Shown piece by piece: positions 42,473 through 63,523 of a stretch of DNA of 64,000 bases; position 1 is the stretch's first letter, and the number at the start of each line of letters is the position of its first letter. Source of the stretch: Candidatus Polarisedimenticolaceae bacterium (GTDB lineage: Bacteria > Acidobacteriota > Polarisedimenticolia > Polarisedimenticolales > DASRJG01); NCBI GenBank assembly GCA_036275915.1, contig DASUCV010000020.1:62001-126000 (forward strand). The letters run 5' to 3'. A program made the position numbers and the translations under genes. The notes under the pieces were generated by a model, which saw only the letters and a program-made list of their open reading frames with translations, searched no databases and was not told the origin of the DNA.

Positions 42473-45400
42473 TCACCGGCCCTTCGGCGTTTCGACGTGG
42501 GGCTGCCTGGACGGGGCCCCCTTGCGCCAGAAGATCTCTTGCTCGATCGTCAGCGGGTAGACCGCCGGGTCCCACTTCGCGGTGATCTGCCGCTTCACGT
42601 CCTCGACGCGCTTGCCGACGAGCGCGGCGTCCTCGGTGTCGGCGAGGTACGTAAGACGCAGCACCGCCGGCGCCTTGTGCAGCTCGCCCACGAGCAGGTC
42701 GATGCGCGGCCGCCAGGGAACGCGAATGTCGGTCGAGCCGGGCTCGAACGCGGCGTCCGAGAGGTCGATCGCGACGACGCGGAAGATCGACGCGCCGAAG
42801 TCGATGCCGAGCGCCTTGCCCCGCGTGGCGCGCTCGACGCGCTGCCCCGGCGTCGACATGCGGAAGCCGCTCGGCAGCGTCCTCTCGTCGAGCTTCAGGA
42901 TGAAGTTGCTGCCGCGGTCCTCGTTCGGGACGATCGCGCAGGTGATGTGGTAGCGCCCGTAGGCGTCGGTCGTCGCCTGGAGGCCGCGCACGGTCACGAG
43001 GCGCACGCCTGCGATCCCGCCTTCGCCTTCGTCCTGCACGCCGTTCCTGTTCGCGTCGTTCCAGACCTTGCCGAGGACGTCGGTGCAGTCGAAGTTCGGG
43101 TCGGGCGCGACGCGGACCGTCGCCGTCGCCTCGCCGGAGATCGCCGCTCCGGTGAGGCCGTCCACGACGCGGGCCCGGTTGACGTACTCTCCTTCGCTCA
43201 CGCCGGGGCCGACGGCGAGGAGGAGCTTGATCGTGCGCGACTGCGTGCCCGCCAGCGCGAGGCCGGTCCAGCGCAGCTCGCGGCCGGCGGCGGCGGGCTC
43301 CGCGGGCGTGCCGTCGACGAGCGCGGAGCGCGGCACGTACGTGAACCCAGCCGGGAAGTCGTCGACGACGCTAATGTCGGTGAGCAGCGCCCCCGACACG
43401 TTGTCGACGGTGATCGTGTAGGGCACGAGCTGCCCGCGGGTCACGTCGATGAGCGGCGTCGTCTTCGTGATCGCGACGGCGCCCGCGAGCTGCGGGTCGA
43501 GCGGGATGTGGTTGTCGAAGATCTGGCTCGTGCCGGGCGATCCGGTTCCGTCGAGCACGAGGTGGAGGTAGTAGATCGTCCCGGGCGTGCGGGCCTGGAC
43601 CGCGGGAGTCGGTGCGTCCTGAGACGGCTCCGCCTCGCAGTAGAGGGTGGTCGACGGGATCGCGTCGCCGGCGCCGGCGGGACAAGCGGGCACCGAGAAC
43701 GCCGCGGTCGCCGCGTCGGTGGCCGGCGGGATGATCTGCGAGGGACCGTTCACGTAAGACGAGCCCGGAGGCGCCGCGACCGCGATGACGTAGTCGCTTC
43801 CGCTCGGGCAGGCCGGGTCGCTGAAGTTGAGGTCGAACTTGTAGTAGCCGCTCCCGAGCGTGACCTGGCCCTGCTGGGCCGGATCGTCGAAGCAGCCCGC
43901 CGGCAGCGGCGCGCCGCCGCCGCCCTGAAGCAGCGTGAGCGTCGCCCCCCCGATCGGGATGCGCGCCATCGCGTTGTAGACGACGCCGTTCGGCGTGATC
44001 GGCAGGTTGAGGCCCTGGAGGTTCGCGCCGGCCGAGACGGTGACGCCCGTGATCCGCTGCGGTCCGTTCGTGAACGGCGAGGACGCGCGTCCCAGGGTGG
44101 CGGTCGTCGCGACGGCACCCGGGGCGCGGAAACGGATCTCGTACGGACTGCCGGAGACGTCGTTCGGCTCGACGTTGACGAACCGGTAGGCGCCGTTCGC
44201 GTCGGTGAGCGAGGTGTGGAGGATCTGGTTGTCGCGGTAGAGATCGACCGCCCAGCCGATGAGCGGGCGCTCGCCGGTGTCCTGAATCTGGTCGAAGTCG
44301 GCGTCGCGCCAGGCCGATCCGTTCAAGACCGCGACACCGGGCACGCCGCCGACCGCGATCGAGACGGACGCGCTCGCCGTCTGCGTCGGAGTGTTCCATG
44401 TGACGTCGGCCGTGTTCGTGACCACGGTGCCCAGAGCGAGGCTGGGATCGAGGGTGGCCCGGAACCGGAGCGTCACGGTCGCGCCCGGAGCGAGCGGGCC
44501 GTACGCGGTGCCGAAGTCGGCGGTGATCGTGGTACCGGCGACGGTGACTCCGGTCGCGGAGCCGTTCATCGTCGCGGAGCCGGGCACGTAGGCGAGCTGG
44601 CCGGCGGGGAGCGCGTCGGTGATGACGACGGTCAGCGCGGGGACGGCCGCGAAGTTCGTGACCGTGACGACGTAGTCGAGCTGCGCGCCCGGAATCGCCG
44701 GGCCGCCGCCGACCACCGAGACCTGCTTCGTGATCGAGAGCTCCTGGACCGCGCCGACCACGACGACCGTCGGCTGCGCGCCGTTCGCGGGGTCGCCGTC
44801 GCCGTCGGTGAGGAGATCCGGTAGCTCGACGCTGTGGACGGTCGCCTGGTTGACGATGAGCGTGCCGGCCGGGGTGCCTGGGACGACGCGTAGCTCGTAC
44901 TGGACGACCGCCGAGCCGTGCGCGGGGATCGTGCCGACGGCGATTCCCGAGGCGAGCGGCGCCACGCCGCCGTCGGGCTGGCCGACCGCGGCGCCATTGA
45001 GCGTCGTGGTGTTCGCGACGTAGGTCGTGTTCGCGGGAACCGCGTCGATCAGCACGACGCCGGTCGACGGGATCGCCGCGGAATTCTGGATCGTGATCGT
45101 GTAGCGGAGGACGTCGCCCGGATCGACGACGCCCGGTGTCCCGAGGTCGACGGCGAGCGCCGCCGTCTTCGTCGCGTAGAGCAGCGGATGGTTGCCGACG
45201 ACGTTACGCGTCGGGTCGTCGGGGATCGGCGTGCGAGGGTCGTCGGACGGCGCATCGACGATGCCCGGCGTCGCGCTGACGAACCCCTGGTTCGAGATGA
45301 TCGTGCCGTCGAGGACGGCGGGGTCGATCACGACGTCGAAGACGATCGTCGCGGTGGTACCGACGGGCATCGAGCCGGGCGTCGGATCCGACGGCGGGTG

Positions 45401-47530
45401 AATCAACATGCCGGAGACGAGCGCCGAGGTCCCGCCGACGTCGGCGACGACCGCACCATTGAGGCGCGTGCTGCCCGCGACGTACGCCGTGTTCGCGGGG
45501 ATGGCATCTCGTATGACGGCGCCGGTGGCGGCCGCGTTCCCGATGTTCTGGACGGTGATCGTGTAGCGCAGGGTCTCGCCGGCGAGGAGCACGTTCGGGT
45601 CGCCGGTCATGTCGGTCGAGATCTTCTGAACACGGAACGCCGGCGAGGCCTGGATCGTGACGCGGGTCGGATCCTCGTCTCCCGCGACGAGCGGGTCGGC
45701 CGTCCCGTTCACGTTCGGGTCGTCGCTCAGGGCGACGACCGTATTGTTCGGAAGCCGCGAAGACGCCTGGTTCGTGACGACCGTGCCGTTCGTGAGCGCC
45801 GGCGCCAGCCGGATGTCGAACTGGATGGTGAGCGAGCTGTTGGCGGGGAGGCTCAGGCTCCGGACGTCGAGAACGCCGGTGCCGTTCGTGCCGCCGTTCG
45901 CGCTCGTGCTGCCCGTGTTGGCCCCCGGGGGAACCGTGACGAGCGTCAGCGTGCCGGGCACGTACGCGGGCCCGGGGTTCATCGCCCCCATGTCGTCGAA
46001 GATCCGGAAATTGTTGAGCGGCTGGTCGGTCGTCCGGAAGCGCAGCGTGTACCGCAGCGTGTCGCCCGGAGCCGCGGTCGTCGTGGGATCGACTCCGGTG
46101 GTCCGGTCCGCGGCGGTCTTCTCGAAGAAGAACCCGGTGAGCGCCGTGTTGACGGTGAAGGCGTCCTGGAAATCGACGATGGCGGGCGTGCCGTCCGTCA
46201 ACGTCCGGTTGTAGGCGACTCGGCTCGCGTTGCTGCTGTCGCCGTTGAACCATTGGATCGCGCCCGCGATGTTCGTGAGCGCGACACCGTTCTGCGTGTT
46301 GGCGTCGAGCTGCGTGCGGTAGTGGACGATGAGGCGCTGGCCGGCGGCGATCGATCCCGCCGCCGTGAGCATCTTCAAGTCGAGCCGGCACGCGGGAGCG
46401 GGAGACCAGCTCAGCGTGTAATCGACCCCCGCGGCGAGCGGTCCCTTGCCCGCGACCGGGGTCACGCCGTCGGCGGCGAACACCTGCGCGCTCTGGATCT
46501 CCGGCGTCAGGTCGCACATGCCGCCGGTGGCGCCGTTCGGGAGCAGGTCGCGCAGCGTCACGTCCCAGGCGTCGGAGAGCCCGGTGTTCGCCGTGTCGAG
46601 GGTGAAGGTCCCCCACTGGCCCAGGTTCATCGTGGCCGGCCCCGACTTGTCGACGGTGAGCACCGGCGCCGCAATCGTGAGTGGCGGCGAGATGCCGTTC
46701 TCGCCGGGAAGCGGCTGGTAGAACACGCCGTCGATGAGCCGGCCGAACTGCCAGGTCGCCGTGTTGACGAACTGCTTCCCGGGCGTGTTCACCGCCGGGT
46801 CGTCGTTGAGGACGACCGTGAGGTTGACCGCGAACTGCCGCCCGGCGTTGACGATCGGGATGCCGTCGAAGGTCAGGAAGCCGTTGTTGTTGGTGAAGGT
46901 GTGCGGGACCGGTGTGCCGTCGTCGAGCCAGGTGGCCGTCTCGCTCACCACGCTCAGGTCGACGCCGGTCGCCGTGAGGTCGTCCCAGACCGTGATGCTG
47001 TGGAGATCGTTGACGCTTCCCTGAGTGTCGATGACGGTGCCGGTGCCCGGGTCGAACAGCACCGGGATGACGAGCTTCCACGTGAACGGGACACCGATCG
47101 TGGCGGTCGTCCGGTTCGTCGGGACGTTCTGCTTGTCGATCTTCTCGACCGGGATCAGCAGGCTCAGGCAGTGCTGCTGGACCGAGGTCGACGAGCTGTT
47201 GACGAACCAGATCTTGTTGCCCTGCGCGTTGAGGTTGCAGGACATGTTCCCGGTGTGGACGACGTTGTCGAAGATGAGCAACGTGCTCGAGGGCAGGCTG
47301 CCGAACCAGCTGATGTTCGAGGTCAGAGGGTTCGATGCCGGGTAGTTCCGGATCGTGCACTCGCCGTCGATGTTGATCTGCGCCGGAGGGTTGGGGTAGT
47401 TGACGAAGCCGTCGATGATCCCGCCGGCCTGAGCAACGCAGTCGAGCGCGAGCGCCGGAGCCGCGGACAGCAAGCACACCGCGACGGCGAGGCCGACGAC
47501 TGTCGCGAGTTTCTTGACGCTGAACCGCAC
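42473..47530 (-). CDS. Giant DUF11 / SdrD B-like repeat surface protein
   Basis: A 1685-residue protein starting at a GTG with GGGGGAG as ribosome site; the signal peptide ends near APALALDC. About six DUF11 (TIGR01451) repeats are visible. Each combines a K-x-based opening, GDTLRYTLRF- or GETLRYTITV-type strands and a D-x-P-[AP]-x-T-x-YV-x-G-[ST] ending, as in AIPANTAYVAGSTRLNG. Two SdrD B-like domains (WRDADFDQIQDTGERPLIGW and VWNDANRNGVQDEGEGGIAG) carry calcium-type Asp/Asn loops. The C-terminal about 120 residues are charged and non-repetitive. It resembles isopeptide/adhesin-like surface stalks. A c-di-GMP riboswitch occupies its leader. The OmpA-barrel gene overlaps its stop or lies 5 bases after it. 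Confidence 0.85.
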   Translation of the reverse strand: MRFSVKKLATVVGLAVAVCLLSAAPALALDCVAQAGGIIDGFVNYPNPPAQINIDGECTIRNYPASNPLTSNISWFGSLPSSTLLIFDNVVHTGNMSCNLNAQGNKIWFVNSSSTSVQQHCLSLLIPVEKIDKQNVPTNRTTATIGVPFTWKLVIPVLFDPGTGTVIDTQGSVNDLHSITVWDDLTATGVDLSVVSETATWLDDGTPVPHTFTNNNGFLTFDGIPIVNAGRQFAVNLTVVLNDDPAVNTPGKQFVNTATWQFGRLIDGVFYQPLPGENGISPPLTIAAPVLTVDKSGPATMNLGQWGTFTLDTANTGLSDAWDVTLRDLLPNGATGGMCDLTPEIQSAQVFAADGVTPVAGKGPLAAGVDYTLSWSPAPACRLDLKMLTAAGSIAAGQRLIVHYRTQLDANTQNGVALTNIAGAIQWFNGDSSNASRVAYNRTLTDGTPAIVDFQDAFTVNTALTGFFFEKTAADRTTGVDPTTTAAPGDTLRYTLRFRTTDQPLNNFRIFDDMGAMNPGPAYVPGTLTLVTVPPGANTGSTSANGGTNGTGVLDVRSLSLPANSSLTIQFDIRLAPALTNGTVVTNQASSRLPNNTVVALSDDPNVNGTADPLVAGDEDPTRVTIQASPAFRVQKISTDMTGDPNVLLAGETLRYTITVQNIGNAAATGAVIRDAIPANTAYVAGSTRLNGAVVADVGGTSALVSGMLIHPPSDPTPGSMPVGTTATIVFDVVIDPAVLDGTIISNQGFVSATPGIVDAPSDDPRTPIPDDPTRNVVGNHPLLYATKTAALAVDLGTPGVVDPGDVLRYTITIQNSAAIPSTGVVLIDAVPANTTYVANTTTLNGAAVGQPDGGVAPLASGIAVGTIPAHGSAVVQYELRVVPGTPAGTLIVNQATVHSVELPDLLTDGDGDPANGAQPTVVVVGAVQELSITKQVSVVGGGPAIPGAQLDYVVTVTNFAAVPALTVVITDALPAGQLAYVPGSATMNGSATGVTVAGTTITADFGTAYGPLAPGATVTLRFRATLDPSLALGTVVTNTADVTWNTPTQTASASVSIAVGGVPGVAVLNGSAWRDADFDQIQDTGERPLIGWAVDLYRDNQILHTSLTDANGAYRFVNVEPNDVSGSPYEIRFRAPGAVATTATLGRASSPFTNGPQRITGVTVSAGANLQGLNLPITPNGVVYNAMARIPIGGATLTLLQGGGGAPLPAGCFDDPAQQGQVTLGSGYYKFDLNFSDPACPSGSDYVIAVAAPPGSSYVNGPSQIIPPATDAATAAFSVPACPAGAGDAIPSTTLYCEAEPSQDAPTPAVQARTPGTIYYLHLVLDGTGSPGTSQIFDNHIPLDPQLAGAVAITKTTPLIDVTRGQLVPYTITVDNVSGALLTDISVVDDFPAGFTYVPRSALVDGTPAEPAAAGRELRWTGLALAGTQSRTIKLLLAVGPGVSEGEYVNRARVVDGLTGAAISGEATATVRVAPDPNFDCTDVLGKVWNDANRNGVQDEGEGGIAGVRLVTVRGLQATTDAYGRYHITCAIVPNEDRGSNFILKLDERTLPSGFRMSTPGQRVERATRGKALGIDFGASIFRVVAIDLSDAAFEPGSTDIRVPWRPRIDLLVGELHKAPAVLRLTYLADTEDAALVGKRVEDVKRQITAKWDPAVYPLTIEQEIFWRKGAPSRQPHVETPKGR

Positions 47531-47586
47531 GCGCTCCCCCGTTCTCGCTTCCGTAATCCGGTCAACAGAGCTCGGGGCCGCGGCAA

Positions 47587-47607: not shown

Positions 47608-47698
47608 ATTCCGGCGGTCCCGCTGCCTTGGGGCCCCCATGGCCCGTTAGACCGGTGACTTTGCGTCGCCACCTTTCGATGGCTTTGCCTTTGTCAGA
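47608..47698 (-). promoter_or_regulatory. Cyclic-di-GMP-I (GEMM) riboswitch aptamer
   Basis: On the minus strand, AAAGGCAAAGCC is followed by AUC, a GAAA tetraloop and GGUGGC, making a perfect 6-bp stem (GCCAUC/GGUGGC, one G-U). Next comes the hallmark GACGCAAAGUCACCGGUCUAA. A second stem-loop (GGGCC...GGCCC) follows, then CAAGGCAGCGGGACCGCC. These match the conserved core of GEMM-I: GGCAAA, tetraloop, GACGCAAAGYCACCGGYCUAA, and AGCGGG. It ends 77 bases before the GTG of the DUF11 gene, so c-di-GMP should set that gene's expression within the operon. Confidence 0.88.
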
Positions 47699-47727
47699 AT
47701 CGAATCAGATGCGCACTCCTCCTGTGG

Positions 47728-56099: not shown

Positions 56100-56636
56100 T
56101 CACCACTCCTCGAGCGCGACCGGCGTGCTTCCGGACCCGGCCACGCGCAGACCCACGAGCTTGGGTTTCACGTCCTTGCGAAAGGCGAGGTGCTCGGTGC
56201 GGTTGACGTCGGCGCCGCCGTCGAGCTTCCCTTCGACGACGACGTCGAGCTTGTGCTCTCCCGTCGTGACGTTGCCGACGTAGAGACGCTGCACGCCGCC
56301 TTTGCGCAGGGCCTCGAGCTCCTTGAAGCTGTAGATGTACTCGGCCGCGCGCTGCCCGTCGATCGTCAGTCGCACCGCGTCGAGGCGCATCGTGTCGCCC
56401 TTCGCGAGCGCGACGAAGACGGCCACCTCGGTGCCCGACGGATAGAGCAGCTTCTCCTCGAGCCGGCTCAGCTCCTGCGCGATGCCGAGGACGTCGGATT
56501 TCATCGCCTGAACTTGCTCGTCCAGGCCCGGAGGTGGCGCCTGGTCGCTCTTTTGCGCGCGGGCCGCCACGCTCATGCCACAGAGAAGGGCAGCGCAGAG
56601 GATCACGCGGCCTCGCGTCCGAACCGGTTCGCCCAT
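56100..56636 (-). CDS. Exported protein, first gene of envelope operon
   Basis: A 178-residue protein. The ATG at 56636 has a GAGGAA site; a GTG at 56657 is the alternative. The signal peptide ends near AARAQKS. A short coiled-coil (about 38-58) precedes a beta-sandwich-like domain with TEVAVFVALAKGDTMRLDAV, YIYSFKELEALRKGGVQRLY and GEHKLDVVVEG. I recall database entries that mislabel similar proteins as 'AraC family', although there is no DNA-binding domain. It leads the operon and is preceded by a sigma-54 element. Confidence 0.7.
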   Translation of the reverse strand: MGEPVRTRGRVILCAALLCGMSVAARAQKSDQAPPPGLDEQVQAMKSDVLGIAQELSRLEEKLLYPSGTEVAVFVALAKGDTMRLDAVRLTIDGQRAAEYIYSFKELEALRKGGVQRLYVGNVTTGEHKLDVVVEGKLDGGADVNRTEHLAFRKDVKPKLVGLRVAGSGSTPVALEEW

Positions 56637-56729
56637 GACGTTCCTCGTTTCGCTCACGAAGCGCTCGAGCGGGCAACAGCGATCCCGCTCGGCCGTGAGG
56701 GCGCCCCCCTCCTCGGCTCGCGGAGGGAT

Positions 56730-56745
56730 TGCAACGCCTCTGCCA
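56730..56745 (-). promoter_or_regulatory. Sigma-54 -24/-12 promoter of envelope operon
   Basis: On the minus strand TGGCAGAGGCGTTGCA carries TGGCA and TTGCA with exact GG-N10-GC spacing; flanking bases (C before, AT after) also fit. It lies 93 bases before the ATG at 56636, so the 19-kb operon would need RpoN and an enhancer-binding protein. The flanking region 56637-56853 has no gene. Confidence 0.7.
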
Positions 56746-56853
56746 GGAATGGAATGTGTGGGAGTGACCGGCCCGCGAGGAGCGCGGTTTAGGAATTCCG
56801 GACGCGGCGGCTACGAATCCCGTAACTCGGATTCAAGGACGTATGCGACGGAG

Positions 56854-59800
56854 TTAACGGAAGTTCACCTTGATCGTCGTGACCGCGCGGGCGCGCGAAG
56901 GCACGCGCACGACGTCGCCGTCGATGGGGAGATCCTTTCCGTCTTCTTCCAGGAAATTCGTCGCGCGCGCGCGGCTCGGCTCGCGGTCGAACGTCACCGC
57001 GGCCGTCGTGTCCTCACCCTTGGGGTCGTACCATTGAACGACCCATGCGTTCGAGTCCTCGGCCTTCTTGAGAGTCGTGAGAACGAGCGAATCGGGGGCG
57101 AGACGGACGAACGAACGGCGGGGCGATTCCCCTCGGTGCGCCGTCTCGACGACGGCGAGGAGCGGGTTGTTCATCTCGTAGCCGCGGCGCACCGTGGCCG
57201 CGCCCGAGATCCCGCCGGCGTGGGGAAGGAGAGCGTAGTCGATCGTGTGCTTGCCGCGGTCCGCCGTCGGGTCGGGCCATTCCGGGGAGCGGAGGAGCGA
57301 GAGACGCATCGTGTTGCCCTTGATGTCGTAGCCGTACTTCGACGTGTTGAGGAGGCTGACGCCGAACCCGTCCTGAGAGAGGTCGGCCCAGCGCTGCGAC
57401 GGCACCTCGACCTTCGCCTTCTGCCACGCGTCGCCCATTCCCGTCGAGCGCTCGATCGTCCCGTACGGGATCTCGTAGGTGGCGACGTCGCTCTTGACCG
57501 CGACGGGGAAGGCAACCTTGAGCATCGTCTTCGTCTCCCACCAGTCGACCGCGGTCGTGAAATCGACGCGATCGGATCCGGCGTCGAGGACGATGTCCTG
57601 TGTGAAGAACGTGGACGGGAAGTCCTCGGTCGGGAAATCCTTCTTCGTGCCCGGCTTGAGGTAGTCGCGCTTGAGCCGGACGACGGCGCGGACCGGTCCG
57701 CGCTCGATCACCTCCGCCCCACGGAAGGTCGAGGGGAACTCGGTGCCGGTGAGACCGACGTTCCACGCGTCCCACGCATCGGGCTTGTCTTCGAGAAGCT
57801 GAAGCTGGTTTCCGGGGCCGGCGAGCACCTCGCGACCCGACTTCTTGTCGACGATGCTCGCGATCCAGCCGGTCTTCGCGTCGATGCGCACGCGGAGCGC
57901 GTCGTTCTCGAGGGTGTCGGCGGTGACGGAGAGGGACGTCGTCGCCGCGGCCTTCTGCGGGCGCAGGTCGTAGACGGCGTAGCCGAGAGCCGGAACGCGC
58001 GCCCGGAAGATCACGTCGCGCTGGTAACGGCCGTTCGCGAGGACCTGCGACGGAAGCTCCGTGCTCCCGTCGAAGACGGCGACGTCGCCTTCCATCCCTG
58101 GAGGAAGCGTGACGCGGACCACGTCGCTCCGCTCCCATCCCAGCGCGTTGAAGACGACGACCGGCGCCCCTTTCGACGCTGACGTGTCGGCCTTCGATGC
58201 GATCGCGTGGAGCGCTCCGTCGAGCACGTGGTTCCCGATCGTCTCGGCGTCGCGGTAGTGCTCGCCGGCATCGATGTAGTTCTCGCGGATGCCGGAGCCC
58301 GGCAGGAGGTCGTGGAACTGCTCGAAGAGGACGTTCCGCCAGGCGTCCTCGAGGCCGGCGTTCGAAGTCCCCGCGAGCGTCGAGAGCTTCTCGGCGTTCG
58401 TCAGGAGGACCTCGTCGCGGCGGTTCGAAGACTTCATCTTCGCCTGGGTCGTGTAGGTGCCCTGGTGGTACTCGAGGTACAGCTCGTCCTTCCAGACCGG
58501 CACCTTCGAGAGATCCTGCGCGCGGAGCCACGAGAAGTAGCTGCCCGCGTTCCCGTGCTCGATCGTCGGGTAGAGATCGAGCTTCCGCAGCTTGTCGATC
58601 CGGTCGAGCATCGCGAGCGAGGGACCGCCGCCGTGGTCGCCGACGCCGAAGAGGACGAGCATCTTGCGGAAGCCGCTGTTGGCGTCGTGCTGCCGCAGCC
58701 AGTCGACGAGCTGGAACGGATCGTCGACCTCGTTCACGTAGTCGAAGGGGAAGTACGTGAGGACGCGCGAGCCGTCCGGCGCCTGCCACCAGAACACGCG
58801 GTAGGGAAAGACGTTCTTCTCGTTCCATCCGATCTTCTGCGTCACGAACGCGCCGATCCCGGCGTTCGCGTAGAACTGCGGAATGTTCGCGTTGTAACCG
58901 AACGAGTCGGGGTTCCACCCGATCGTGACGTCGGCGCCGAGCTTCTGCCGGAAGTAGCGCTTGGCGTAGAGGAGATGGCGGGCCCACGACTCGCCCGACG
59001 GGAGGTTGCAGTCGGGCTCGACCCACATCCCGCCCACGACTTCCCAGCGTCCGTCCTGGACGCGCTTCTTGATCCCGGAGAACAGCTCGGGATCGAACCG
59101 CTCCATCCATTCGTAGTACGCCGCGGCGCTCTGCGTGTACGTGAAGTCCGGCCGCGCGTCGAACATCTTGAGCACGGAGCCGAACGTTCTCCGGCACACC
59201 TCGACGGTCTCCTTCTCGCGCCAGAGCCAGGCCGCGTCGATGTGGGCGTTGGCGGCGAAGTGCAGGGTGTAGGAGTGGACGAACTTGGCGATCGGCGGAA
59301 GCTCGCGGCGCAGGGCGGCGAGCGACGCGCGGAACGCGGCGAGGTCGCCGCGCTCGAGCGATGCGGTGTCGACCTTGGCCGCGAGTTGCTGGAGCAGGTC
59401 GTTCAGCCGCCGCTTCTCCGCGGGGTCGGCGGTCGAGCGGTCGGTCCCGGGGTCGATCCGGTTGCGCGCACTGGTTTGATACGTGTCGAAGCCGAGGAGC
59501 TTCTGCGCCACGCGCAGGCTGATGCCGAGCCCCTCGATCTCGTCCTTCGCCTCGGAAGGCTCGGCCAGCTCGAAGTCGGCCTGGAGCAGCCGCAACGGGC
59601 CGCCGGTGTTGATCGCGTGGATCGCGAGATGGAGAACGTCGCCCGGCTTGACATCCTGACTCAGCGTGAAGGAACCGCTCCAGTCGAAGCGGCCGAGGTC
59701 CTTTCCATTCACGAACAGGAAGCCGTAGTCGTCGACGGTCACCTTGAAGGTGAGCGGCCCGTGCGGCTTCCGGCCGGCGACGCTCTGGGGCACGACCACG

Positions 59801-60051
59801 GTCTTGCGCATCCAGCAGGAGTCGACGCGCAAGCTCTCGTCGATGCCGAGCGGCTTCCAGCCGCCGTCGTCGTAGTCGTCCTTCGCCGGGTCGTTCCCCT
59901 CGATCGGCCCCGGGCTCACCTTCCATCCGCCGAGATGCGTCATCGTCAGCTCGTCGAAGCGCGCGACGAGCTTGTCGACGGCGGTCTCCGCGCGTGCGAC
60001 ACCGATCGAGACGAGAAGGACGACTCCCGCGATCATGGAGCGACCGGTCAT
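56854..60051 (-). CDS. Secreted GH38-family alpha-mannosidase with N-terminal sugar-binding-like domain
   Basis: A 1065-residue protein with a signal peptide ending near GVARAET. An N-terminal jelly-roll-like domain (about 50-165, with FLFVNGKDLGRFDWSG) precedes the GH38 core. The zinc site is ANAHIDAAWLW (His270, Asp272), and the nucleophile is Asp382 in WNPDSFGYNANIPQF. The C-terminal beta domains follow to the end. It should trim alpha-mannosides in the periplasm or outside. A signal peptide is unusual for bacterial GH38, which is mostly cytosolic. It overlaps the permease gene by ATGA, so it belongs to the sugar-uptake operon. Confidence 0.87.
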   Translation of the reverse strand: MTGRSMIAGVVLLVSIGVARAETAVDKLVARFDELTMTHLGGWKVSPGPIEGNDPAKDDYDDGGWKPLGIDESLRVDSCWMRKTVVVPQSVAGRKPHGPLTFKVTVDDYGFLFVNGKDLGRFDWSGSFTLSQDVKPGDVLHLAIHAINTGGPLRLLQADFELAEPSEAKDEIEGLGISLRVAQKLLGFDTYQTSARNRIDPGTDRSTADPAEKRRLNDLLQQLAAKVDTASLERGDLAAFRASLAALRRELPPIAKFVHSYTLHFAANAHIDAAWLWREKETVEVCRRTFGSVLKMFDARPDFTYTQSAAAYYEWMERFDPELFSGIKKRVQDGRWEVVGGMWVEPDCNLPSGESWARHLLYAKRYFRQKLGADVTIGWNPDSFGYNANIPQFYANAGIGAFVTQKIGWNEKNVFPYRVFWWQAPDGSRVLTYFPFDYVNEVDDPFQLVDWLRQHDANSGFRKMLVLFGVGDHGGGPSLAMLDRIDKLRKLDLYPTIEHGNAGSYFSWLRAQDLSKVPVWKDELYLEYHQGTYTTQAKMKSSNRRDEVLLTNAEKLSTLAGTSNAGLEDAWRNVLFEQFHDLLPGSGIRENYIDAGEHYRDAETIGNHVLDGALHAIASKADTSASKGAPVVVFNALGWERSDVVRVTLPPGMEGDVAVFDGSTELPSQVLANGRYQRDVIFRARVPALGYAVYDLRPQKAAATTSLSVTADTLENDALRVRIDAKTGWIASIVDKKSGREVLAGPGNQLQLLEDKPDAWDAWNVGLTGTEFPSTFRGAEVIERGPVRAVVRLKRDYLKPGTKKDFPTEDFPSTFFTQDIVLDAGSDRVDFTTAVDWWETKTMLKVAFPVAVKSDVATYEIPYGTIERSTGMGDAWQKAKVEVPSQRWADLSQDGFGVSLLNTSKYGYDIKGNTMRLSLLRSPEWPDPTADRGKHTIDYALLPHAGGISGAATVRRGYEMNNPLLAVVETAHRGESPRRSFVRLAPDSLVLTTLKKAEDSNAWVVQWYDPKGEDTTAAVTFDREPSRARATNFLEEDGKDLPIDGDVVRVPSRARAVTTIKVNFR

Positions 60052-60974
60052 GTGCGTCTCTCCCGCAGCCGGTCGAGGAGCACGGCGAGGAGGATCACCG
60101 CGCCCACGACGACTTGTTGCACGTACGAGTTCACGTTCAAGAGGTTGAGCCCGTTCCTCAGGATCGCGATGAGCATCGTGCCGAGGAACGTGCCGGCGAC
60201 CGAGCCGCGGCCTCCGGACAAGCTCGTGCCGCCGACGACGACGGCGGCGATCACGTCGAGCTCGAGCATCAGGCCGGCGTTCGGCTGGCCCGAATTCATG
60301 CGCGAGGCGAGCAGGACGCCGCCGAGGGCGGCGAGACCGCCGCAGAGGACGTAGGTCGATGCGACCACGCGCGCGGTCCCGATTCCGGCGAGCCGCGCGG
60401 CCTCGGCGTTGCCGCCCACCGCGTAGACGTGACGACCCCAGCGCGTGTGCTTGAGCGCCGCGTGCGCGACGACGAAGACGAGGACCATGACGATCGACGG
60501 AAACGGGACCCCGGCGAGACGTCCGCCGCCCAGGCCCGCGAACCCCGGCGGCAGGTCCCAGACCGGACGCCCCTCGGTGGCGACGAAGGCGAGACCGCGC
60601 TCGATCGTCATGAGCGCGAGGGTGACGATGAACGGGGCGACGCCGAGGCGCGTCACGAGCGCTCCCGCCACGACGCCGGAGACGAGGCCGATGCCGAGCC
60701 CCGCCGCGATCGCCGTCGCGTACGCGTGGCCGCCCGCGAGCGCCGCGGTCGTGGCGATGCCGGCGACCGCGACGACCGACCCGACGGACAGGTCGATGCC
60801 GCCGGTGAGGATGACGAACGTCATGCCGGCGGCGACGATCGCCGTGATCGAGGCCTGGAGCGAGACGTTGAGCAGGTTCTCCGCAGTGAGGAAGTGGGGC
60901 GAGAGGAACGAGAGCGCCGCACCTTCGATGACGACGGCGGCCGCGATGGCCGCCTCGCTGCCGCGCAGCCTCAC
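60048..60974 (-). CDS. Ribose/sugar-type ABC transporter permease
   Basis: A 308-residue RbsC-like permease with about 8-10 membrane helices and the family hallmark GGIDLSVGSVVAVAG near the N-terminus, plus VVVGGTSLSGGRGSVAGT near the end. The start is a GTG at 60974 that overlaps the ATPase stop (GTGA). It transports a monosaccharide, possibly a product of the mannosidase encoded downstream. Confidence 0.88.
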   Translation of the reverse strand: MRLRGSEAAIAAAVVIEGAALSFLSPHFLTAENLLNVSLQASITAIVAAGMTFVILTGGIDLSVGSVVAVAGIATTAALAGGHAYATAIAAGLGIGLVSGVVAGALVTRLGVAPFIVTLALMTIERGLAFVATEGRPVWDLPPGFAGLGGGRLAGVPFPSIVMVLVFVVAHAALKHTRWGRHVYAVGGNAEAARLAGIGTARVVASTYVLCGGLAALGGVLLASRMNSGQPNAGLMLELDVIAAVVVGGTSLSGGRGSVAGTFLGTMLIAILRNGLNLLNVNSYVQQVVVGAVILLAVLLDRLRERRT

Positions 60975-62455
60975 GCCGCGGCGCCCGGTGCCGCGAGAGC
61001 GAGCAGACTCTCCTGCGTCGCCTCGCGCGCGAGCACCTCCCCGGCGATCTTCCCCTCGCGCATGACGAGCACGCGGTCGCAGATCCCGAGAACCTCGGGC
61101 AGGTCCGAGGAGACGACGAGGACGCCGATCCCCTCCTCGACGAGGCGCCGGATGATGAGGTAGATCTCGCGCCTCGCACCGACGTCGACTCCCGCCGTCG
61201 GCTCGTCGAAGATGAGGACGCGTCCCTCGGTCTCGAGCCACCGCGCGAGCACGACCTTCTGCCGGTTCCCGCCCGAGAGCGCCCCGACCGGCCGCTCGAC
61301 GTCGGCCGGCTTGATCTGGAGCTCGACGGCGCGCGCGCGGGCCGCCGCGGTCTCGCGTGAGCGCGAGAGCAAGCGGCGCAAGCGCGCGAGCGTGATGTTC
61401 TCCCGCACGTTCATCGTGCCGACGAGGCCGAGACGATCGCGGTCTTCCGTGAGGAGACCGATCCCGAGCGCGATCGCCTCGTGCGGCGAGCGCGGATCGA
61501 TCGGGCGTCCGTCCAGTCGAAGGCTCCCCGACGTCCGCCGGTCGGCGCCGAAGATCGCGCGCACCACCTCACTGCGCCCGGCGCCGACGAGCCCCGCCAT
61601 CCCGAGCACCTCGCCGCGTCGCAAGGTGAAGCTCACCGGACCGGCCCGCCCTGCCACGAGCCGGTCGACCTCGAGAACCGTCTCGCCCGGCGTCGACCGT
61701 CTCTCCGGGTACTCGTCGCCGAGATCGCGCCCCACCATCGCGCGGATCAGCGCGGGACGATCGATCTCGCCGGCGCGCGCGGTCGCGACGTGCTCGCCGT
61801 CCCGAAGTACCGTCACGCGATCGGCGAGGGCGAAGATCTCGTCCAGGCGATGCGTGATGTGAATGACGCCGACGCCTTCCGCTGCGAGCCTGCGCACGAC
61901 GCGGAACAGCCGCTCCGCCTCGTGCGGCGTGAGCGGCGCGGTCGGCTCGTCGAGCACGAGGATGCGCATCCGCCGCGAGAGGGCCCGCGCGATCGCGACG
62001 AGCTGCCGGCGCGCGAGGTCGAGCGCCTCGACAGGCGTCCCGGGATCGATCGGCTCACCGAGCTGCGCCAGGAGCGCCTCGGTCGCGCGCGTGAGCGCGG
62101 CGCGATCGAGGATCCGTAAGCCCCTCCGTCGCGGCTCGTGCCCCAGGAAGACGTTCTCCGCCACGGTCAGGTGCGGCACGAGGTGCAGCTCCTGGTGGAG
62201 GATGCCGATGCCGAGCGCGAGCGCGTCCGCCGGCGAGCGCAGCGACACCGGCGCTCCTTCGAGCGACACGGTCCCGGAGTCGCATGCCGTCGCACCCGAG
62301 AGCACGCGCACGAGGGTCGACTTCCCTGCTCCGTTCTCGCCGGCGAGCGCGTGGATCTCGCCGCGCTCCAGCGTGAAGTCGACCCGGTCGAGGGCGCGCG
62401 TCGTGCCGTAGCTCTTCGTGATCTCCCGCATCGCGAGGAGCGGGGACAAGGTCAT
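60971..62455 (-). CDS. Ribose/sugar-type ABC transporter ATP-binding protein (RbsA type)
   Basis: A 494-residue protein with two ABC domains. The first has Walker A GENGAGKST and Walker B ILVLDEPTAPL. The second has the signature LSGGNRQKVVLARWL and Walker B VLIFDEPTAGVDVGA, with a degenerate Walker A (GLVGAGRSE), as usual in this family. It energises sugar uptake together with the permease. The ATG overlaps the stop of the binding-protein gene (ATGA). Confidence 0.92.
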   Translation of the reverse strand: MTLSPLLAMREITKSYGTTRALDRVDFTLERGEIHALAGENGAGKSTLVRVLSGATACDSGTVSLEGAPVSLRSPADALALGIGILHQELHLVPHLTVAENVFLGHEPRRRGLRILDRAALTRATEALLAQLGEPIDPGTPVEALDLARRQLVAIARALSRRMRILVLDEPTAPLTPHEAERLFRVVRRLAAEGVGVIHITHRLDEIFALADRVTVLRDGEHVATARAGEIDRPALIRAMVGRDLGDEYPERRSTPGETVLEVDRLVAGRAGPVSFTLRRGEVLGMAGLVGAGRSEVVRAIFGADRRTSGSLRLDGRPIDPRSPHEAIALGIGLLTEDRDRLGLVGTMNVRENITLARLRRLLSRSRETAAARARAVELQIKPADVERPVGALSGGNRQKVVLARWLETEGRVLIFDEPTAGVDVGARREIYLIIRRLVEEGIGVLVVSSDLPEVLGICDRVLVMREGKIAGEVLAREATQESLLALAAPGAAA

Positions 62456-63372
62456 CGCGGCGCCGCGCTCGAAAGCGCCGCCTTGTCCACGATGCCGACC
62501 GGCACCGGCACCACCTTCGGAACCGGCTTCCCGGCGAAGTGATCGCGGATCTCGTCGATCGTCGCCGCCCCGATCTTCTTCGGGTACTGGACCACGTCGG
62601 CCGCGAGCGCCTCGCCCTTCTTGATCGCGTCGACCGCCGGCTCGGTCGCGTCGTAGCCGACGATCACGATCCCGTCGCGCTTGAACTGGCGCACCGCGTC
62701 GAGCGCGCCGAGCGCCGAGTCGTCGTTGATTCCGAAGATCCCGCGCAGGTCGGGATGCGCCTGGAGGACGTCGGACGCGGCCTCGAGCGCGCGGTCGCGC
62801 ACGCCTTGCCCGTTGACGTCGGCGACGACCTGGATCCCCGGATGCGCCGCGATCGCCTCGCGGAACCCCTTCACGCGGTCGAGCACCGAGGTGATGACCG
62901 GCTGGTTGATGATCGCGACCGCCCCCGATCCGCCGATCGCCTTCGCGAGGTATTCCCCGGCGAGACGTCCGCCGGCGACGTTGTCGGACGCGACGTGGCA
63001 GACGACGTCGCCATCCTTCGCGGCGATGTCGGCCGTGAAGACCGGGATGCCGGCGGCGTTCGCCTTGCGGATCGCCGGCCCGACGCCGCTCGAATCGACC
63101 GGACAGACGACGATCGCGTCGACCCTGCGGGCGACGAAGTCCTCGATCTCGGAGGTCTGCTTGCCGAGATCGAAGTCGGCCGCGGTCACGACGAGCTCGT
63201 ACCCGGGCGACTTCGCGGCGTCGCGGAGGCCCTCCTCGAGATCGCGGTAGAAGAGGTGACCCCGCGTGAGCAGGGTCACTCCGATCGTCTTCGTCGCCGC
63301 CGGCGCGTGTGCCGACTTTCCGCCGCAGGACAGCAGCGCGGGCAGCAGCAAGCAGGCGGCGAGGCGTCTCAT
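62452..63372 (-). CDS. Sugar ABC transporter substrate-binding lipoprotein
   Basis: A 306-residue periplasmic binding protein of the RbsB/type-I fold. The ATG at 63372 places a lipoprotein signal correctly (LLLPALLSCGG), so it is lipid-anchored. Sugar-binding segments DAIVVCPVDSSGVGPAIRKA, AAGIPVFTAD and GIFGINDDSALGALDAV are conserved. It leads the four-gene operon with ATPase, permease and GH38 mannosidase. The ligand is probably a monosaccharide; the mannosidase context suggests mannose, but this is inference. Confidence 0.9.
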   Translation of the reverse strand: MRRLAACLLLPALLSCGGKSAHAPAATKTIGVTLLTRGHLFYRDLEEGLRDAAKSPGYELVVTAADFDLGKQTSEIEDFVARRVDAIVVCPVDSSGVGPAIRKANAAGIPVFTADIAAKDGDVVCHVASDNVAGGRLAGEYLAKAIGGSGAVAIINQPVITSVLDRVKGFREAIAAHPGIQVVADVNGQGVRDRALEAASDVLQAHPDLRGIFGINDDSALGALDAVRQFKRDGIVIVGYDATEPAVDAIKKGEALAADVVQYPKKIGAATIDEIRDHFAGKPVPKVVPVPVGIVDKAALSSAAPR

Positions 63373-63523
63373 GGCGCGGCGCTCAGTCTGCCACGCCTTT
63401 CCCGGAAGTCGGGCGAGCGCGGCGCAGCAAAGTTGTTTCACGCTTTTCCTCATTGACAGCGGCGACCGATGGGGTGTTAGCTACCGGCCGTTTGCGCAAC
63501 TTGGCGCAGCACAGGAGGTGTCG
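63373..63523 (+). promoter_or_regulatory. Divergent upstream region of sugar operon and RiPP precursor
   Basis: This 151-base gap holds the upstream sequences of both genes. On the plus strand a perfect TTGACA (63453-63458) is followed after 16 bases by TGTTAG (63475-63480), a weak -10, 43 bases before the precursor ATG. No clear operator is seen. Confidence 0.3.

Follow-up and report, generated by a model that had tools for sequence, protein, structure and literature searches.

Sigma-54 promoter and c-di-GMP-I riboswitch in an Agl/Glt-type motor gene row of a Polarisedimenticolaceae bacterium

The stretch of DNA analyzed here (64,000 nucleotides, called the window below) contains a long row of minus-strand genes for a putative trans-envelope motor and two giant proteins, which raises the question of what switches this row on and whether its distal half is subject to an additional control. 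The sequence-only reading placed an "exact" sigma-54 promoter at the head of the row and a c-di-GMP riboswitch inside it. The row extends from 56719 to about 37434, where it has a convergent end, and its first nine genes are arranged head to tail, either overlapping or separated by small gaps:

56100..56636, minus strand: gene 1, conserved secreted protein, 178 aa
54224..56095, minus strand: gene 2, TPR protein, 623 aa
51213..54224, minus strand: gene 3, TPR lipoprotein, 1003 aa
50617..51216, minus strand: gene 4, TPR protein with weak GltE similarity, 199 aa
50300..50620, minus strand: gene 5, small secreted protein, 106 aa
49626..50303, minus strand: gene 6, MotA/TolQ/ExbB (AglR-like), PF01618 at 111.5 bits
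49214..49639, minus strand: gene 7, ExbD/TolR, PF02472 at 78.8 bits
48745..49209, minus strand: gene 8, ExbD/TolR, PF02472 at 57.6 bits
47728..48735, minus strand: gene 9, TonB/GltG-like, with AgmX/PglI C-terminal domain (NF033768 at 60.3 bits, cut-off 40)
42473..47530, minus strand: gene 10, giant surface protein with DUF11, SdrD-B and fimbrial isopeptide domains, 1685 aa
37434..42575, minus strand: gene 11, OmpA-domain giant, ORF of up to 1713 aa (start approximate)

Judged by their sequences, genes 1-9 encode an Agl/Glt-type core complex, which comprises a TolQ protein, two TolR proteins, a GltG-like protein and three TPR proteins. In non-Deltaproteobacteria and in Geobacter, the aglRQS and gltCDEG genes for such a complex, related to the gliding motor of Myxococcus, were observed to form single clusters, and in most of the bacteria that carry it no function has been assigned to the complex (Luciano et al. 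2011, PMC3169522). Genes 2-4 and 6-9 of the window correspond in kind to aglRQS-gltCDEG and likewise form one cluster; however, the window's row additionally includes genes 1 and 5, and continues behind a riboswitch with the DUF11 and OmpA giants. The equivalog models for Myxococcus GltE and GltG were matched well below their cut-offs (45.9 vs 225 and 38.8 vs 650 bits), which indicates that the complex is a relative of the Myxococcus gliding machine rather than that machine itself. Gene 1 matches no family in Pfam or NCBIfam, and in a remote homology search against solved structures it gave only weak matches, mostly to coiled-coil proteins.

Sigma-54 promoters confer strict on/off control, exerted through an activator. 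The putative promoter and the elements around it are the following:

56745..56730, minus strand: sigma-54 -24/-12 promoter, TGGCAGAGGCGTTGCA, with the same site in eight orthologous upstream regions
56719, minus strand: predicted transcription start (+1, a G), placed by promoter geometry 12 nt past the C at -12
56786..56801, minus strand: candidate activator box 2, CCGGAATTCCTAAACC, a motif common to upstream regions
56812..56827, minus strand: candidate activator box 1, AGTTACGGGATTCGTA, containing the inverted repeat TACG-N5-CGTA

The architecture and spacing of the site are those of a -24/-12 promoter, with GG at -25/-24 and GC at -13/-12, but the term "exact" was too strong, as TGGCAGAGGCGTTGCA has a single mismatch to the consensus TGGCACN5TTGCW, namely TGGCAG for TGGCAC. 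It is located 93 nt ahead of the gene 1 ATG at 56636 (minus strand), which is preceded by the Shine-Dalgarno sequence GAGGAA, and the predicted start at 56719 is one base away from the 56718 proposed previously. The site thus shares with known RpoN-dependent promoters the GG/GC elements, their spacing, the intergenic location before a gene start and the presence of RpoN and enhancer-binding proteins (EBPs) in the genome, while two things set it apart: in this clade, no particular base is kept at the sixth position of TGGCAC, and the site heads a motor operon.

Motif counting alone was considered as proof and rejected, as the loose consensus is at the chance level both in the window (12 matches with up to 2 mismatches vs 11.95 expected) and in the genome (46 matches with up to 1 mismatch vs 183 for the reversed control). 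The strict pattern TGGCAN6TTGCW occurs once in the window against 0.03 occurrences expected and was present in 3 of 100 shuffles, and TGGCAN6TTGCA occurs only twice in the 4.5-Mb genome. On these sequence grounds the motif by itself is weak evidence, and the strong evidence for a sigma-54 site is its conservation. Orthologs of gene 1 (54-73% identity) were found in nine other genomes among those searched, all from the window's class, and 80 further gene 1 loci were drawn from a wider collection. Gene 1 is carried by six genomes of the window's order (the window's own genome, G001, G003, G006, G008 and G009, which constitute the complete set), and each of them has TGGCA-N6-TTGCA ahead of the gene, as do two more distant genomes, G014 and L077. 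An alignment of these eight regions anchored at the motif showed no variation in its ten fixed columns, while the pairwise identity was 0.18-0.57 in the six spacer columns and 0.21-0.38, i.e. near random, in the 10-bp flanking blocks. An unanchored search of the 300 nt before gene 1 for motifs of the form 5-N(0-20)-5 recovered this site as the only one shared by at least five of the eight genomes; it was present in all eight, compared to at most three in shuffles. Even though the eight regions were picked for having the site, the complete six-genome set of the order supports the same conclusion. In six of the eight orthologs the predicted leader measures 82-86 nt, and in the other two 143 and 168 nt.

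The loose consensus being no commoner than expected, one could argue that the match is fortuitous, or that its conservation has nothing to do with sigma-54. We find this hardly credible, since the conservation fits the -24/-12 contacts exactly and ignores the spacer. As the site is retained while both the spacer and the surrounding DNA are near random, the sigma-54 promoter before gene 1 is, on comparative sequence grounds, almost certainly real. No clear site was found in three class relatives that carry gene 1 (G024, G028 and G032). Outside the class, a search for a sigma-54 site ahead of gene 1 was successful in L077 only; in many of those relatives, gene 1 is internal in a cluster with the stalk-first order.

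The genome encodes an intact RpoN with the RpoN box ARRTVAKYRE, and 25 matches to the EBP family PF00158, 21 of them strong; GAFTGA or GAFTDA was recognized in 13 by an automatic check. None of the PF00158 matches lies on the window's contig, and no EBP could be assigned by neighbourhood. The intact RpoN and the many EBPs, together with the ten invariant bases, bear out the earlier proposal that a sigma-54 promoter heads the motor operon. Genome-wide, the strict pattern TGGCAN6TTGCW occurs at nine sites, of which five (that of the window plus four more) have the Shine-Dalgarno-ATG start of an ORF of at least 60 aa 40-103 nt downstream; only 4% of random positions in the window have such a start at that distance (binomial P of about 1e-5 for five of nine). 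Downstream of a sixth site there is an ORF of 36 aa, close to an EBP gene. The pilA gene has a perfect sigma-54 site at its head (locus L012, G000:C17:276-291), and its neighbours encode an NtrC-family response regulator, a histidine kinase and a PilC; this site serves as an internal positive control, and the sigma-54 regulon of this genome seems to include pilA as well.

Upstream of the promoter, about 70-110 bp ahead of the start, boxes 1 and 2 are shared among the upstream regions to an extent that exceeds shuffles, and they may be the binding sites of the activator. Further upstream (56854-63453), on the same strand, the window contains what is probably an ABC transporter for sugars, together with a large protein resembling alpha-mannosidase. 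That genes 1-9 owe their transcription chiefly to polymerases reading through from the mannosidase gene, or to a housekeeping promoter that escaped detection, is quite improbable in our view: the mannosidase gene does have the same orientation and no terminator-like site was found between it and gene 1, but no counterpart of the mannosidase was detected in the relatives' cassette loci, in contrast to the conserved sigma-54 site, and the search for a sigma-70-like promoter in that interval yielded none.

With the sigma-54 promoter taken as the head of the row, the second part of the question concerns the following elements between genes 9 and 10:

47610..47699, minus strand: c-di-GMP-I riboswitch aptamer, RF01051 at 75.3 bits (gathering score 35)
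47529..47584, minus strand: predicted hairpin pairing the Shine-Dalgarno region of gene 10 (folding prediction)

The aptamer starts 28 nt after gene 9, ahead of the DUF11/OmpA half of the row, and is the sole RF01051 match in the whole genome; its presence inside the row supports the sequence-only reading. Like other c-di-GMP-I riboswitches, it has a full aptamer, and its particular feature is the location between genes of one row, with a probably translational platform. A short open frame, ATGACCACAGGAGGAGTGCGCATCTGA (47728-47699), overlaps the gene 9 stop codon just ahead of it. Directly 3' of the aptamer there is a stable hairpin, CAGCCCGA-cgta-TCGGGCTG, with similar hairpins in relatives, which could be taken to mean that the riboswitch halts transcription, by a terminator or Rho, instead of translation. 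We regard this as unlikely, given that no U-run follows the aptamer in the loci inspected, no terminator was called behind it on the minus strand of the window, and a second hairpin covers the Shine-Dalgarno region, although action through Rho is conceivable. The absence of a U-run terminator and the pairing of the Shine-Dalgarno region favour translational control, and by these folding models gene 10 is likely gated at the level of translation. The expression platform was folded sequence by sequence, as the MAFFT alignment was poor in this region and no consensus fold was obtained. In 17 scorable loci, the mean pairing of the Shine-Dalgarno region was 0.84 vs 0.71 in shuffled sequences (Wilcoxon P 8e-5) and the mean folding z was -2.7; the pairing in the window's own sequence (0.80) was not higher than in its shuffles (0.79). 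According to the folding prediction, the aptamer-proximal hairpin and the Shine-Dalgarno hairpin can coexist, hence it is not evident how ligand binding switches the platform.

Does the sigma-54 transcript extend this far? Genes 10 and 11 might form a separate unit, transcribed from a promoter within the 3'-terminal part of gene 9, leaving only genes 1-9 to sigma-54. In Geobacter-type genomes, the order is stalk-first (gene 10, gene 11, then genes 1-9), with the riboswitch and gene 10 at the cluster head, which indicates that this pair can act as its own unit. In the window, however, the gap between gene 9 and the aptamer is only 28 nt and no sigma-70-like promoter was found there (the scan was for that consensus only), and we consider a separate unit doubtful. 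It is reasonably likely that one transcript runs through the riboswitch to genes 10-11.

The best explanation as a whole, to which we assign a probability of roughly 0.75, is a sigma-54 promoter with read-through and a riboswitch-gated gene 10. RNA polymerase with RpoN would form a closed complex at 56745-56730 and stay inactive there unless an ATP-dependent EBP, probably bound near 56786-56827, opened it for initiation at 56719. The transcript would encode the proton-driven Agl/Glt-type trans-envelope core complex (genes 1-9), and read-through would add the giant DUF11 surface protein and the OmpA-domain protein, the former translated under control of the riboswitch, as either an ON or an OFF switch, via the hairpin pairing its Shine-Dalgarno region. 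The sigma-54 signal would thus call for the motor, while its surface partner would require the right c-di-GMP level too. A role in surface attachment, as the sequence-only reading also suggested, is plausible because of the protein domains and the link to c-di-GMP; the developmental character which that reading also proposed is speculative. In a literature search, no title or abstract was found that describes regulation of this operon by sigma-54 or by a riboswitch.

The two controls are separable, since G006 and G009 keep the sigma-54 site and have zero RF01051 matches in their genomes. Single matches, also ahead of gene 10, were found in each of G001, G003 and G024. With a model built from five copies of the riboswitch, which was used for searching the relatives, it was detected before gene 10 in Acidobacteriota, Gammaproteobacteria (including Lysobacter, Povalibacter and Peristeroidobacter) and Myxococcota. 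The five Geobacter-type loci examined (L206-L210) exhibit tandem riboswitches of the c-di-GMP-I clan upstream of the gene 10 frame. Nine gammaproteobacterial loci possess a second strong c-di-GMP-I riboswitch just upstream of gene 1, in the place occupied by the sigma-54 promoter in the window's clade:

L123: 9544-9635
L104: 9531-9627
L092: 9808-9894
L105: 9782-9869
L118: 9716-9803
L097: 5585-5671
L094: 8725-8811
L153: 367-455
L093: 816-902

Across phyla, the core complex accompanies a giant surface protein encoded downstream of a c-di-GMP riboswitch; in the window it is also connected with the sigma-54 regulon. This provides an example of an operon with lineage-specific control at its head, an RNA switch in one lineage and an alternative sigma factor in another. 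We see about even odds that these cassettes represent a widespread c-di-GMP-gated trans-envelope system, composed of an Agl/Glt-type motor, a giant DUF11 protein and an OmpA protein, in which the DUF11 part is gated by the riboswitch, while the motor half can be placed under different controls in different lineages. The linkage leads us to hypothesize a motor-dependent, c-di-GMP-gated surface structure.

Several minor observations concern the relatives. In G006 and G008 (L219, L230, L225 and L231), strict sigma-54 sites are located directly before matching genes for small secreted proteins or lipoproteins, hinting at a conserved regulon of envelope proteins under sigma-54. The cassettes of L077 and L087, labelled as Candidatus Eisenbacteria and Anaerolineales, are very close to the acidobacterial ones, and these contigs have probably been mis-binned. 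Candidatus Polarisedimenticola svalbardensis (L090), a member of the class, has the same site as contig C139 of G006.
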